This document shows, piece after piece, positions 119 through 52,397 of a stretch of 64,000 nt of DNA; position 1 is the first letter of the stretch; every line of letters starts with the position of its first letter. The notes beneath the pieces are model-generated. The model did no database searches. It was not told the origin of the DNA and saw only the letters and a program-made list of their open reading frames with translations. Source of the DNA: Hydrogenimonas urashimensis (GTDB taxonomy: Bacteria > Campylobacterota > Campylobacteria > Campylobacterales > Hydrogenimonadaceae); assembly GCF_016593255.1 (NCBI RefSeq), contig NZ_AP023212.1, positions 1,582,501 to 1,646,500 on the forward strand, read 5' to 3'. A program made the position numbers and the translations under genes.

Positions 119-196
119 TTTTTCTACGCGTGCTGCCGCCTTGTTGAGTGTTGCACGAGGCTGTGGGCAAAATTGGGCAGACTGCTGAATGAACAC

Positions 197-317
197 CTAA
201 AAACTAAAAGTTAAAAACTAAAAACTCGGGTGAACTGCTTCGCAGTCAATTATTTAGAAATAAAAGAGCGAAGCGATTTTCCTAAACTTTTAGTTGTTAG
301 TTGTTAGTTTTTAGTTG
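197..317. repeat. Inverted arms of heptanucleotide repeats in the 23S-5S spacer
   Basis: The rRNA spacer has two A/T-rich arms. The left arm (about 197-227) is built of four 7-base units of the form CTAAAAA/G. The right arm (about 283-317) is four units of the form TTTTAGT/TGTTAGT, the opposite orientation of the same motif. A short hairpin (ACTGC, loop TTC, GCAGT, 234-246) lies between them. The arms could pair imperfectly in the rRNA precursor. No tRNA gene is present in the spacer. Confidence 0.7.
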
Positions 318-350
318 AAAAATACTGTTTCCTCGAGCCACTTGGAAACA

Positions 351-392
351 AAGAGGTGAAAGCCAACTTCACGAAGTTGTCTTTCACCTCTT
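351..392 (+). other. Long hairpin directly upstream of 5S rRNA
   Basis: AAGAGGTGAAAG (351-362) pairs perfectly with CTTTCACCTCTT (381-392). Inside it CAACTT (364-369) pairs with AAGTTG (374-379). This makes an almost uninterrupted stem ending two bases before the likely 5S start. Inference: a processing or folding signal in the rRNA precursor, for example an RNase III-type target. A terminator is unlikely because the 5S gene follows. Confidence 0.7.
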
Positions 393-393
393 T

Positions 394-510
394 GTCCGGT
401 GCCTACAGCGAGGGGGTCATACCCAGCTCCATCCCGAACCTGGAAGTCAAGCCCCTCTGCGCTGATAATACTGCACCCCTCGGGTGTGGGAAGGTAGGTC
501 GGTGCCGGGC
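394..510 (+). rRNA. 5S ribosomal RNA
   Basis: The 5S signature is present: CCCGAACCTGGAAGTCAAG at about 433-451. The terminal helix is formed by TCCGGTGCC at 395-403 and GGTGCCGGG at 501-509, allowing G-U pairs. The length of about 117 nt is normal. It follows the 23S gene, so this is the distal end of an rRNA operon. Ends are estimated from helix I. Confidence 0.93.
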
Positions 511-15219: not shown

Positions 15220-15312
15220 GTTCTCCGTCCTTTGGTTATATCTATTTTGTTTTTTATTTTATCATAACTGCTGACGAATAAATAAAGAGAGTGACGCAAA
15301 TACAGTGTAGAA

Positions 15313-15364
15313 TGACGATTTAATAATCATTTAATTGACTTTTATCGTCAAAATCATGTAAGAT
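15313..15364 (+). promoter_or_regulatory. Promoter with flanking inverted repeat at the recombinase-like gene
   Basis: A -35 (TTGACT, 15335-15340) and a -10 (TAAGAT, 15359-15364) are 18 bases apart upstream of the gene at 15388. TGACGAT (15313-15319) and ATCGTCA (15344-15350) form a perfect 7-bp inverted repeat. The left arm lies upstream of the -35 and the right arm sits in the spacer. This arrangement suits an operator for a dimeric protein, possibly the adjacent gene product. Function is inferred. Confidence 0.55.
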
Positions 15365-30328: not shown

Positions 30329-30903
30329 TGCGCCTCGCCTTCTTTTGGGCAGATTGCCCCGCTTTTGAGATATTCGAGCATCCAGGGCCACGGGCCGTAG
30401 CCGCTGTCGGCGTTGATGTGGCCGGCGCGCTCGATCACCTTCATCGGGATCTTCAGCCTCTCCTGCAGCCTCCACGCCTCTTCGAGCGTCATATAGGGAT
30501 CGTCGGTCGAGACGACCAACGTCGCGCATTCGGCATGCAGGTTTTCCGGGGCTTCCACCGGAAAGAAGCTTTTGATCGTCTCGATCTGGCAAGTTAGGCT
30601 CGGCGGGGCGACGAGGATCAGTTTTTCGACCGTTTCGATCGGCTCGCTTTCGGCATCGTTGCACAGATGAAACCAGAGGGTGTTGGCCAGAGAGTGGCAG
30701 ATGACGGTCGTGGGCCTGAAATCTCTCAAATGGGCGCGCACCTCCCTTTTCCATCGGTTGAGATGCGGATAGTGCGGATGCTGGATCAGCGGAAAGCTCA
30801 CGGTGCCATAGTCTTTGGCCAACTCCGCGGCGAGCCAGCTCTGCCAGTGCGGCCAGTCACTGCCGCCCCAGCCGTGCAGCAGCAGGGTCTTATCGCGTTT
30901 CAC
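30325..30903 (-). CDS. RBBP9/YdeN-family serine hydrolase
   Basis: A 192-residue small alpha/beta hydrolase. It begins with the LLHGWGGSD oxyanion segment and has the nucleophile elbow CHSLAN, a late Asp (STDDPY) and a catalytic His (ERAGHIN), giving a full triad. Substrate unknown for most of the family. It overlaps dxr by 14 bases and tsaD by 4, so all three are co-translated. Confidence 0.88.
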   Translation of the reverse strand: MKRDKTLLLHGWGGSDWPHWQSWLAAELAKDYGTVSFPLIQHPHYPHLNRWKREVRAHLRDFRPTTVICHSLANTLWFHLCNDAESEPIETVEKLILVAPPSLTCQIETIKSFFPVEAPENLHAECATLVVSTDDPYMTLEEAWRLQERLKIPMKVIERAGHINADSGYGPWPWMLEYLKSGAICPKEGEAQ

Positions 30904-31960
30904 ACCATCTCCTCACCTCGTCGTCGATCGCGAAGACTTCGTCGAGGTTCGCGGGCTCGCGGTGCCCAAAATGTTTGTACGCATCGATCACGAGGCGGGC
31001 AATGCCGCCGAAGGGCATCTCTTTGGCCAGAAACTTCCCGATCGCCGCTTCGTTGGCGGCATTCACCACCACACCGCGCCTGGGGTGGGCCAGAAGATCT
31101 TCCTTGATCGCCCAGATCGGATAGCGCGCCGCATCGATCGGGCGAAACTCCAGCGAGCCGACGGAGAGCAGATCCACCGGCTCGAGCACCGGTACGTCGA
31201 CGCGATCCATCAGGGCGTAGGCGATCGGAAGTTTCATATCGGGATGGGCCATCTGCGCCGTCGTCGCACCGTCGACGAACTCCACCATCGCGTGCACGAC
31301 CGACTTGGGCTCGATGACGGCGTCGACATTCTCGCACCCGTAGAGCCAGCGTGCTTCGAGCAGCTCGAAAAGTTTGTTGGTCATCGTCGCGCTGTCGATC
31401 GTGATTTTGGCCCCCATCGACCAGTTGGGATGATCGAGCGCCTCTTCGAGGGTGGCGTTTTCGATCGTCTCGATCGGACGGTCGCGAAAGGCGCCGCCGC
31501 TGGCGGTGATGACCATTCTTTTCGGGGTGCGGCCGTTCAGCAGATACCAGAGGCCGAAATGTTCGCTGTCGATCGGCCGCAGCGCCCTGGGGTCGATGAA
31601 GGCGCCGGCGGCCACGAGCGACTCCTTGTTGGCCAGCGCCACCCTCTTGCCCTCCTCGATCGCCGTCACCGTCGGGCGGAGCCCCAAAAAACCGACCAGC
31701 GCATTGACCACGACGGCCGACTGGCCGGCACGGATCAGCTTCAATATCCCCTCTTCCCCCCAGAAGACGCGCGGATGGTCGATCTGCCTGGCCAGCGCTT
31801 CGGTCGCGACACTGACGAAGCAGGGCTGGAATTTTTGGATCTGCTCCTTGAGCAGTGTAATGTTGTAGCCGGCCGCCAGTGCTTCGACGCGGATATTGAA
31901 ACGTTCGGCCACTGCCAGCGTATTGACGCCGATGGAACCGGTGCTTCCCAGGAGGATCAT
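30890..31960 (-). CDS. dxr: 1-deoxy-D-xylulose 5-phosphate reductoisomerase
   Basis: A 356-residue NADPH enzyme that converts DXP to MEP in isoprenoid synthesis. The N-terminal Rossmann motif is LGSTGSIGVNTL, and typical catalytic segments include ALANKESLVAAG and the SMGAKITIDSATMTNK region. Length is a little shorter than E. coli IspC (398), usual here. The start codon lies in the loop of a strong hairpin listed separately. It overlaps the hydrolase gene downstream. Confidence 0.95.
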   Translation of the reverse strand: MILLGSTGSIGVNTLAVAERFNIRVEALAAGYNITLLKEQIQKFQPCFVSVATEALARQIDHPRVFWGEEGILKLIRAGQSAVVVNALVGFLGLRPTVTAIEEGKRVALANKESLVAAGAFIDPRALRPIDSEHFGLWYLLNGRTPKRMVITASGGAFRDRPIETIENATLEEALDHPNWSMGAKITIDSATMTNKLFELLEARWLYGCENVDAVIEPKSVVHAMVEFVDGATTAQMAHPDMKLPIAYALMDRVDVPVLEPVDLLSVGSLEFRPIDAARYPIWAIKEDLLAHPRRGVVVNAANEAAIGKFLAKEMPFGGIARLVIDAYKHFGHREPANLDEVFAIDDEVRRWCETR

Positions 31961-31977
31961 TGATCCTCCTGGGAAGC
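31943..31977 (-). promoter_or_regulatory. Perfect 17-bp inverted repeat enclosing the dxr ribosome site and start codon
   Basis: Bases 31943-31959 are the exact reverse complement of 31961-31977. In the minus-strand mRNA the left arm carries AGGAGG, the AUG lies at the turn, and the right arm is the first coding triplets (Ile-Leu-Leu-Gly-Ser). A realistic hairpin has about 13 bp with a nine-base loop holding the AUG, and pairs the Shine-Dalgarno with codons 3-4. This should restrain translation unless unfolded. Confidence 0.75.
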
Positions 31978-32012
31978 AGTGGGCAGCAAAAGAGGGACTG
32001 GTTCTCGAACGA

Positions 32013-32033
32013 GAGACGAGGGACGAGGGACGA
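32013..32033. repeat. Heptanucleotide repeat (GRGACGA x3) between dxr and cdsA
   Basis: Three tandem 7-base units, GAGACGA, GGGACGA and GGGACGA, lie in the 82-bp gap between cdsA and dxr. They are adjacent to the short palindrome TCTCGAACGAGA. Unit length equals that of the rRNA spacer repeats, but the sequence is unrelated. Role unknown. Confidence 0.6.
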
Positions 32034-32042
32034 CTTTGTGCA

Positions 32043-32810
32043 TTACAAAAGTCCTCTCAACAGCAGCACCATCATGATACCGCCGAAGAGATAGCCGTCC
32101 ACGCGGTCGAGCATGCCGCCGTGACCGGGGAGAAGGTCGCCGCTGTCTTTGACATTGGCCTGACGTTTGAGGTAGCTTTCGAAAAGGTCGCCGAAGACGG
32201 AAGCGATCGACGTTCCAAGAGAGATCAGCAGGGCCTGGGGCCAGTCGACCAGAAGACTGCCGGCGAAAAATCCGACGAATGTGGCGATCAGAACCCCTCC
32301 GACCACACCCTCAACCGTCTTTTTGGGGGAGGTGGGGCAAAAGGGGCGCTTTCCGAAGAGTTTGCCGCTGAAAAAGGCGAAAATGTCGGTCAGTGCCACC
32401 ACCACAAGAAGCCAGAACAGCGAATCGACGCCGAAATCCTTGTAAAGCGCCAATAGAAACAGGAACGAAGCCGTCGGATAGAGGAACGGAAGGAAAAGTC
32501 GCTTGTCGAAATCCTGGGTATAGGCCAGCAAAGAGGCGAAGATGACGGCGATCAGGAAAAAGAGATCGTCCGGATTGGGATAGACCAGTGCCAGCAGCCA
32601 GACCAGCATGGCGTAGGCATACATTTGATTGTTTTTTTCGATACCGAAAAGGCGCATCGCTTCGTAGAACGAGAAGAGAAAGACGATGCCCAGAAAGAGC
32701 CAGATGAGAAAAAAGTTGTCGATCAGCCCGATGGAGACGACGACGGCGATGAGTACAGCACCGGTGAGAAAACGAGCCCTGTTTTCGGAAACGATGGAGA
32801 AAAAACCCAT
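32043..32810 (-). CDS. cdsA: Phosphatidate cytidylyltransferase CdsA
   Basis: A 255-residue integral membrane enzyme with about seven to eight hydrophobic helices. It makes CDP-diacylglycerol for phospholipid synthesis. The C-terminal family signature is present: SVFGDLFESYLKRQANVKDSG followed by LPGHGGMLDRVDG, with the metal-binding Asp residues. It is upstream of dxr, an order frequent in bacteria. Confidence 0.95.
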   Translation of the reverse strand: MGFFSIVSENRARFLTGAVLIAVVVSIGLIDNFFLIWLFLGIVFLFSFYEAMRLFGIEKNNQMYAYAMLVWLLALVYPNPDDLFFLIAVIFASLLAYTQDFDKRLFLPFLYPTASFLFLLALYKDFGVDSLFWLLVVVALTDIFAFFSGKLFGKRPFCPTSPKKTVEGVVGGVLIATFVGFFAGSLLVDWPQALLISLGTSIASVFGDLFESYLKRQANVKDSGDLLPGHGGMLDRVDGYLFGGIMMVLLLRGLL

Positions 32811-37624: not shown

Positions 37625-38194
37625 ATGCGTTTTCCAATTCCCTGCGTCATCTTCGCCGGGGGGAAGAGTTCCCGGATGGGACGCGACAAGGCGCTTCTGC
37701 CGTTTGGCGGATACGACACTCTTGCCGAGTATCAATACCGCCGTCTCTCGGTGTGCTTCCCAACCATTTACATCAGTGCCAAAGGGAACAAATTTCCTTT
37801 CGAGGCCCCGTTGATACCGGATAATAAAGGAAAGGACCTATACGCTCCCACTCTGGGGCTGCAGGCGGCTTTCGAAAGGCTGCAATCCGATTTTTTCGTT
37901 CTCAGTGTCGATACCCCTTTTGTGGAAGAGAAAGAGATTGCCGAAATTTACGAAGCGTATCGGAGGGAGGAAAGGGATGCGGTTATTGCCCGAAGTCCGT
38001 CCGGCATCCATCCGATGTGCGGTATCTACACCGTGAAGATGATACCGAAGTTAAAGAAGATGATGGAACAGGGCATCCATCGGTTGAACCATCTATTGAA
38101 AAATTCCGATACCCTTTTTGTGGATTTTTCGGAAGAAGAGCCTTTTTACAATATCAATACGCCGCAGCAGTACGAAGCGGTGATTCGGCACTGA
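37625..38194 (+). CDS. mobA: Molybdenum cofactor guanylyltransferase MobA
   Basis: A 189-residue cytosolic enzyme that attaches GMP to Mo-molybdopterin, making the MGD cofactor that DMSO-reductase-family enzymes need. The N-terminal nucleotide motif FAGGKSSRMGRDKALL is diagnostic, and SVDTPF contains the metal-binding Asp. It begins immediately after the leuC stop, so the two share a transcript. Relevant to the type II molybdoenzyme in this window. Confidence 0.93.
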   Translation: MRFPIPCVIFAGGKSSRMGRDKALLPFGGYDTLAEYQYRRLSVCFPTIYISAKGNKFPFEAPLIPDNKGKDLYAPTLGLQAAFERLQSDFFVLSVDTPFVEEKEIAEIYEAYRREERDAVIARSPSGIHPMCGIYTVKMIPKLKKMMEQGIHRLNHLLKNSDTLFVDFSEEEPFYNINTPQQYEAVIRH

Positions 38195-38230
38195 GCCACG
38201 AACCACCCCCTTCGCCGCAGCAACGCCGAA

Positions 38231-39133
38231 TCACCGCTTGAGAATTTTCCCCAATTGCATCCGGGTGAAATAGATGAATTTATTGAGCAGAGATGTTTTG
38301 TATTTGTCTTTGTGGTACACGAGCAGAAACTGCCGTTCGAATTTCAGTTTTTTGATTTTGACTTCGAAAAGATCCCCCCGTTCCAACTCTTTCATGACGC
38401 TGATTCTCGGAAGGCAGGTGAGGCATTTGCCGCTTTGAATCAGCATATTTTTGATCGATTCGGGGTGTCGCAGCTCCAGAAACAGATTGATTTGCGCCGC
38501 CAGATCTCCCAGATGCGTCAAAAAGACTTCACGGGTTCCGGACCCCTCTTCCCGGAGTATCCACCGTTTGTCGAGCAGCTTGTCGATGTAGTAGCCCTCT
38601 TCGTTCTGCGCCAGCTCTTTGTCACCGGTGACGACGATCAGTTCGTCGAGTCCGACGACTTCTTGCTTGATGACGGTGGAATCGACATTGCCTTCAACAA
38701 ATCCCATATCCACCTTCCCGTTTTCGATCATCTCCACAATCTCTTTGGTGTTGCCGATTTTGAGACTGATTTTGACCTGCGGATAGGTTTTCATGTAGTC
38801 GCAGATAATCGGAGGTATCAGGTAGTCGGCTATCGTGGTACTGACACCTATGAGCAATTCGCCATTGTTTTCATCGTTTTTGAACTCCTCTTCGATGTCG
38901 TTGAGTTTGCTCACAAGTGGAGCGATCGCTTCCGCAAAAGCGCGCCCCTTTTCGTTGAGGGCCAGCTTCTTGTTGATGCGGTCAAAGAGTTTGTAGCCTA
39001 TGATGTTTTCGAGTTCTTTGATGGACATGGAGACAGCGGACTGGCTCAGGCCCATCTTTTCGGCCACTTTGGTCAAATGGCCCACCTGAGCCACTTCCAG
39101 AAATATCTCCATTTGACGCAGTGTAATCTTCAT
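38231..39133 (-). CDS. LysR-family transcriptional regulator (YeiE/CysB-like position)
   Basis: A 300-residue LysR regulator with an N-terminal winged helix (TLRQMEIFLEVAQVGHLTKV, then SQSAVSMSIKELE) and a two-lobed effector-binding domain (about 90-295). The ATG at 39133 is preferred over 39151 because a weak AGGA site precedes it and the length is then normal. It is divergent from the YeiH-type transporter gene and is probably its regulator, as YeiE/YeiH pairs are known. Effector unknown; sulfite has been proposed for YeiE. Confidence 0.88.
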   Translation of the reverse strand: MKITLRQMEIFLEVAQVGHLTKVAEKMGLSQSAVSMSIKELENIIGYKLFDRINKKLALNEKGRAFAEAIAPLVSKLNDIEEEFKNDENNGELLIGVSTTIADYLIPPIICDYMKTYPQVKISLKIGNTKEIVEMIENGKVDMGFVEGNVDSTVIKQEVVGLDELIVVTGDKELAQNEEGYYIDKLLDKRWILREEGSGTREVFLTHLGDLAAQINLFLELRHPESIKNMLIQSGKCLTCLPRISVMKELERGDLFEVKIKKLKFERQFLLVYHKDKYKTSLLNKFIYFTRMQLGKILKR

Positions 39134-51729: not shown

Positions 51730-51812
51730 AGAAATATTCCACCGGGATGTCGGGCAGGGAAGCCCTGGTGAAAACGAAGTTCCGCGACCCGACTCCGGAG
51801 ACAGAGAGCGAT

Positions 51813-52397
51813 ATGTCCGACGAAAAAGAGGTGAAGTTTGAAAATGCCGTCAGAACGATTCTGGAGCTGATCGGTGAAGATCCGGATCGTGAAGGTCTGG
51901 CCAAAACGCCGCAGAGGGTCTACAAAGCGTTCGAACATATGTGCGGAGGGTACAGGATGGACCCCAGGAAGGTGCTTAATGACGCGATGTTCGAAAGCAG
52001 CAACGACGAGATGGTGCTGGTGCGCGATATCGAATTCTACTCGATGTGCGAGCACCATCTGCTGCCCATCATCGGCCGCGTCCATGTGGCCTATATACCC
52101 AACGGAAAAGTGGTGGGGCTGAGCAAGATACCCCGGATGGTCGATATCTTTGCGCGGCGCCTGCAGATTCAGGAGCAGATGACCGAACAGATCGCCGACG
52201 CGATTCTCGAGACGGTCCAGCCCAAAGGGGTGGCCGTCGTCGTCGAGGCGCGTCATATGTGCATGGAGATGCGCGGAGTGGAAAAGATCAACTCCACGAC
52301 GGTCTCTTCGGCGCTTCGCGGGCTTTTCAAGCGTGATGCAAAAACGAGGGAAGAGTTCATGAGCATGATCAACGCCCCTTTGAGACCCCGCTACTGA
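51813..52397 (+). CDS. folE: GTP cyclohydrolase I
   Basis: A 194-residue cytosolic enzyme that converts GTP to dihydroneopterin triphosphate, the first step to folate. The zinc Cys/His motif is SMCEHHLLP and a second conserved Cys lies in [10 protein letters not shown]. The ATG at 51813 is preferred: AGAGAGCG precedes it and homology starts there, while the ATG at 51747 adds an unrelated tail. Followed by fliI after 12 bases. Confidence 0.95.

Follow-up and report, generated by a model that had tools for sequence, protein, structure and literature searches.

In E. coli, translation of iraD is coupled to that of the 27-codon ORF27, the stop codon of which overlaps the iraD start while the iraD Shine-Dalgarno sequence is sequestered (PMC5574718). 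This is the closest tested case to the arrangement described here at the junction between the cdsA and dxr genes of Hydrogenimonas urashimensis, as both combine a short ORF, a stop/start overlap and a structure hiding the Shine-Dalgarno sequence (PMC5574718). However, ORF27 is a CsrA-controlled leader ORF at the head of its transcript and is devoid of repeats, whereas the cdsA-dxr mini-ORF bridges two genes of an operon and recurs, in different sequence, at a single junction. Among insertions, the nearest parallel is with the MIRU units, repeat inserts that enter at start codons, carry an ORF coupled at -4 nt and have a low insertion cost (PMC12548453). An ORF with a 4-nt overlap to the next gene (ATGA) is likewise read from the sequence at dxr. 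In contrast, MIRU form a single sequence family with one dispersed repeat unit, while the H. urashimensis insert occupies a single place in its own genome and those of its relatives differ from it, all having in common an architecture (7-8 nt arrays, a bridging ORF and a start hairpin) but no sequence. The start-codon hairpin is an element additional to those of MIRU. In coupling by RNA unfolding, as in MS2 coat-lysis and rpmI-rplT, a translating ribosome opens the structure around the next ribosome site (PMC12548453), which would also apply at dxr; there, however, the unfolding would be carried out by a dispensable linking mini-ORF within an insertion and not by the neighbouring gene. Whether translational coupling works by RNA unfolding or by reinitiation was still considered undecided in a 2025 review (PMC12548453). 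Synthetic bicistronic designs (BCD) rely on a short cistron that overlaps the target start and holds the target Shine-Dalgarno sequence, local structure being melted by the ribosomes; these are engineered, and the cdsA-dxr module would be their natural counterpart within an operon. Lastly, the cyanobacterial STRR are degenerate heptamer arrays located between genes, a likeness to the array of the cdsA-dxr insert, and we know of no link between STRR and bridging ORFs or start hairpins. The module resembles iraD/ORF27, MIRU and the bicistronic designs, yet it fits no described family.

The cdsA-dxr junction of H. urashimensis

H. urashimensis is a vent bacterium of the Campylobacterota, and its genome (G000) is assembled as a single contig of 2.30 Mb. 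The window analyzed is a stretch of 64,000 nt, the positions of which are used below. The gene order is cdsA, dxr and then a serine-hydrolase-like gene, and the junction comprises the following features, the two Shine-Dalgarno sequences being assigned from the sequence:

32043-32810, minus strand: cdsA, phosphatidate cytidylyltransferase, the upstream gene (ORF; Pfam CTP_transf_1, E=1.8e-52), with its stop TAA at 32045-32043
32053-32057, minus strand: AGAGG inside the cdsA end, the likely Shine-Dalgarno sequence of the mini-ORF
31957-32043, minus strand: bridging mini-ORF of 28 codons (MHKVVPRPSSLVREPVPLLLPTASQEDQ), spanning from the cdsA stop to the dxr start
31961-32042, minus strand: 82-nt insertion in the cdsA/dxr gap relative to most of the genus, containing the next two features
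32009-32033, minus strand: heptamer array, 3.6 copies of CCCTCGT on the mRNA strand (ACGAGGG on the plus strand)
31970-31988, minus strand: decamer-like tandem repeat, 1.9 copies (TGGGAAGCAG on the plus strand), overlapping the hairpin 5' arm
31961-31978, minus strand: hairpin 5' arm, TGCTTCCCAGGAGGATCA on the mRNA strand, doubling as the last mini-ORF codons
31965-31970, minus strand: dxr Shine-Dalgarno sequence AGGAGG, within the 5' arm
31942-31959, minus strand: hairpin 3' arm, from base 2 of the dxr ATG through codon 7
30890-31960, minus strand: dxr, 1-deoxy-D-xylulose 5-phosphate reductoisomerase (ORF; Pfam PF02670, PF08436 and PF13288), with its ATG at 31960-31958

The mini-ORF ATG overlaps the cdsA TAA by 1 nt (TAATG, 32045-32041) and its TGA overlaps the dxr ATG (ATGA, 31960-31957), both contacts lying within the spacing of coupled gene pairs (overlap or ~20 nt). 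Taken alone, the bridging ORF of this genome is not improbable (P=0.17 by shuffling). Its peptide returns no Pfam match and the peptides found in relatives are unrelated, which discards a role as a conserved peptide. A DNA search of the G000 genome matched the hairpin and insert at one place, itself alone, ruling out one dispersed repeat family. In relatives devoid of the insertion, the position of AGAGG precedes the dxr GTG; since AGAGG thus sits where these relatives have dxr's own Shine-Dalgarno sequence, the old dxr start may have become that of the mini-ORF. Inverted heptamer arrays (CTAAAAA and TTAGTTG), followed by a perfect hairpin of 15 bp immediately ahead of 5S, are also observed in the 23S/5S rRNA spacer (window 196-395).

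The original prediction reported exact inverted copies of 17 nt at the dxr start. The copies are exact, but each arm comprises 18 nt (31942-31959 and 31961-31978) around a one-base centre at 31960, the A of the dxr ATG. On the mRNA (minus strand) they fold into a 17-bp stem with an AAU loop. As proposed, AGGAGG (31970-31965) pairs with codons 3-4, the CCUCCU partner being formed by the last base of codon 2 and most of codons 3-4; the AUG, in contrast, is not entirely in the loop, its A and U being unpaired and its G paired. The predicted structure sequesters the dxr ribosome site, and its 5' arm consists of the final mini-ORF codons, an arrangement suited to coupling by RNA unfolding. Its predicted minimum free energy is -32.8 kcal/mol at 37 °C. 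With the upstream bases shuffled and the coding bases fixed, the hairpin has a z of ~ -6 and none of 400 shuffles is equally stable. Among 450 gene starts tested in G000, that of dxr is the most extreme structure (z -6.2 against shuffled upstream sequence), and in the 464 kb sampled it is both the longest short-loop inverted repeat and the sole start codon with such arms of at least 11 nt. An exact 17-bp stem with a 3-nt loop is expected ~1e-4 times per 2.3 Mb. A chance origin, which the original prediction had judged unlikely, is excluded. Rfam reports no match above its gathering score, the best being RF02828 at a sub-threshold 24.8 of 88 bits.

The called gene start at window 51747-52397, which is possibly miscalled, has an unusually strong predicted structure (z -3.8). 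At window 38175-38239, a mobA-like gene (plus strand) and a LysR-type gene (minus strand) converge with ends that are exact mutual inverted copies (15 nt), a terminator-like hairpin made from coding sequence. L115 exhibits a perfect 34-nt intergenic palindrome at 15283-15316 (GAGAAATATTTGACCGTACGGTCAAATATTTCTC), which is operator-like.

The stem covers the ribosome site and Hydrogenimonas includes thermophiles, as would suit an RNA thermometer in which heat melts the hairpin and switches dxr on. Such a device is highly improbable: the hairpin is predicted to retain -24 kcal/mol at 55 °C and -14.5 kcal/mol at 75 °C, far above the thermometer range, and the same arrangement is found in another genus. 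The thermometer was rejected, the predicted stem being too stable to melt within the growth range. Control of dxr by a protein binding the hairpin, such as CsrA, is very unlikely. Although the G000 genome encodes CsrA and GGA or AGGA is present in the loop of several relatives, the GGA of G000 lies in the stem below an AAU loop unsuited to CsrA, the loops have no common conserved sequence, and GGA is also simply the Shine-Dalgarno motif; this candidate was rejected as well. Gating of dxr initiation by the hairpin, as originally proposed, is well supported, and among the three means then listed (melting, ribosome coupling or a factor) the evidence favours ribosome coupling.

The same junction in related genomes

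The original prediction saw the hairpin but missed the bridging mini-ORF, the inserted repeats and the fact that dxr abuts cdsA in relatives without the insertion. Of the 14 genus members with dxr, ten have the cdsA stop directly against the dxr start (0-1 nt between), and four (G000, G004, G008 and G009) have an insertion of 82-125 nt at this place. The four inserts differ in sequence, for the most part contain 7-nt tandem arrays or similar repeats, and have bridging ORFs of 28-42 codons. Besides G000, insertions of unrelated sequence are present at this junction in eleven further genomes, three of Hydrogenimonas and eight of a Nitratifractor-like genus (G040, G138, G103, G086, G133, G095, G121 and G115). 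L110, the first member from beyond the original genome set, and the insertion-bearing genomes found later are out-of-sample. A bridging ORF is present in all 12 repeat-type insertions (gaps of 82-346 nt, ORFs of 28-117 codons), with unrelated peptides; some of these ORFs start with GTG or lie a few bases away from the upstream stop. Their shuffle probabilities range singly from 0.002 to 0.42, with a product of 1e-15 over 12 rows that are related and not independent.

On the dxr tree, insertion-bearing genomes are scattered over at least 3-4 places, with G009 clustering beside G012 and G007, both devoid of the insertion, and G000 being sister to G005, which lacks insertion and hairpin. Absence from close relatives, which the original prediction would have taken as a refutation, gives a mixed outcome: it holds for this sister, but other lineages carry hairpins of this type, distinct from that of G000, at the same start codon. 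Three Sulfurovum-like genomes (L161, L173 and L177) have a looser variant, with a mini-ORF that ends a few nt short of the dxr start and, as judged by eye, no comparable dxr start hairpin. G003 contains two cdsA-dxr copies, separated by 111 kb and equal in match score (C1:1171478-1172542 and 1282495-1283559), reflecting a duplication or an assembly effect.

Significant dxr start hairpins are found at 10 of the 12 insertion junctions (z -3.2 to -7.5 against shuffled upstream sequence), the statistics being weak in G008 and G086 (z -0.9 and -1.6). Their geometry is not uniform: at ten junctions the stem contains the AUG, with the Shine-Dalgarno sequence in or near the loop, whereas at the remaining two (G000 and G008) the AUG lies in the loop and codons 3-4 pair with the Shine-Dalgarno sequence. 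Numbered from the A of the AUG, pairs in which both sides change from one genome to another include those at -7, -5, -4, -3, -1, +4, +6, +9 and +12. The non-coding arm thus tracks the dxr codons across species, as predicted by selection for pairing.

These hairpins bear on two other accounts of the palindrome. Amplification fold-back can produce perfect palindromes, yet the probability of an assembly artefact is practically negligible for a mirrored stretch of just 18 nt, with a normal mini-ORF and coding side, in a single-contig assembly; the original prediction had already judged it the less likely explanation, and the analogous but distinct hairpins that other lineages have at the dxr start codon bear this out. 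Template switching at the junction could also have reverse-copied the start of the next gene and left a functionless palindrome. The perfect G000 arms are as expected from a recent inverted copy, the 5' arm overlaps the tandem repeat, and a similar mirroring affects the coding 3' ends of the mobA and LysR genes. We nonetheless find this origin clearly unlikely, since hairpins persist and covary in the eight insertion-bearing members of the Nitratifractor-like clade, an unopened -33 kcal/mol stem on dxr should harm the cell, and such a process would not generate bridging ORFs.

The hairpin likely serves as the lock of a module for translational coupling, which resides in the insertion at the cdsA-dxr junction and would restore coupling across it. 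We infer that dxr ancestrally started directly at the cdsA stop codon and that the 82-nt repeat-bearing insertion displaced this start in the G000 lineage. Reinitiation coupling fails beyond about 20 nt between genes (PMC10666635). An 82-nt insert would therefore uncouple dxr and need a bridge, and the bridging ORF would restore contact. A ribosome ending cdsA would restart at TAATG, close to the former start and Shine-Dalgarno sequence of dxr, read the 28-codon mini-ORF and in doing so pull open the hairpin over the dxr Shine-Dalgarno sequence and start region. It would then stop at the TGA overlapping the dxr AUG, where either the same ribosome or a following 30S subunit would start dxr. If the mini-ORF were left untranslated, the very stable hairpin should hold dxr almost silent. 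As its predicted stability at 37 °C, and still at 55 °C, should block free initiation, dxr output would follow cdsA translation via the mini-ORF, and dxr is probably translated only by ribosomes arriving through it. In this coupling, the role of the hairpin would be to stop uncoupled dxr starts. Operon genes relying on stop-start overlaps could thus survive the insertion of repeat DNA, the insert being kept as a ribosome-ferrying frame. Natural and repeatedly evolved coupling modules with covariation would also offer material to separate the RNA-unfolding and reinitiation models.

Repeat-bearing gaps at other operon junctions

Genome-wide statements refer to samples of 464 kb (G000), 800 kb (G040) and 400 kb (G008), with genes called outside the window by our own simple caller. 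In the first 400 kb of G040, 6 of 30 repeat-bearing operon gaps are bridged against 1.4 expected, a value reached in none of 300 shuffles; the second 400 kb, kept as a hold-out, has 2 of 17 bridged against 0.17 expected. Start hairpins (z <= -3) occur in G040 and G008 at 9 of 58 repeat-bearing gaps against 2 of 280 others (p=3e-6), and at these nine junctions, which include dxr of G040, ORFs of 18-69 codons reach the next start. In the hold-out portions only, the difference is significant in G008 (2/11 vs 0/81, p=0.013) but not in G040 (2/17 vs 2/91, p=0.12). In the G000 sample, which holds few repeat-bearing gaps, there is no bridging excess (3 of 121 pairs against 4.2 expected), and a strict test reports bridges in only 4 of 113 comparable gaps, dxr included.

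The recurrence of bridging ORFs in repeat-bearing gaps would also be expected from protection against polarity alone. Rho loading on untranslated RNA is a known cause of polarity (PMC12548453), and a bridging ORF might be kept since an untranslated operon gap would allow Rho termination, the hairpin being a by-product. This account is unlikely, as it leaves unexplained the two-sided changes in the start hairpins, the hairpin enrichment in the same gaps and the exact ATGA overlap.

With coupling as the preferred reading at dxr, it is an evenly balanced possibility that the inserts of at least two Campylobacterota lineages, Hydrogenimonas and the Nitratifractor-like genus, follow a conserved plan without conserved sequence, made up of 7-8 nt arrays, a stop-to-start ORF and a terminal hairpin caging the start. 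Under such a plan, inserts could repeatedly invade tight operons, as each comes with a coupling module of its own, and array turnover would be filtered for frame continuity. The inserts may be mobile, or may expand in place through slippage and template switching. A literature search on heptamer repeats in Campylobacterota returned no report. Many unannotated intergenic repeats of these genomes may be translated. In G040, the gaps at L194, L198, L201, L203, L206, L211, L214, L215 and L220 are full of 7-8 nt arrays that can be read without interruption between the upstream stop and the following start; L198 exhibits an 18-bp hairpin over a TTG start, and L215 and L220 have the AUG in the stem.
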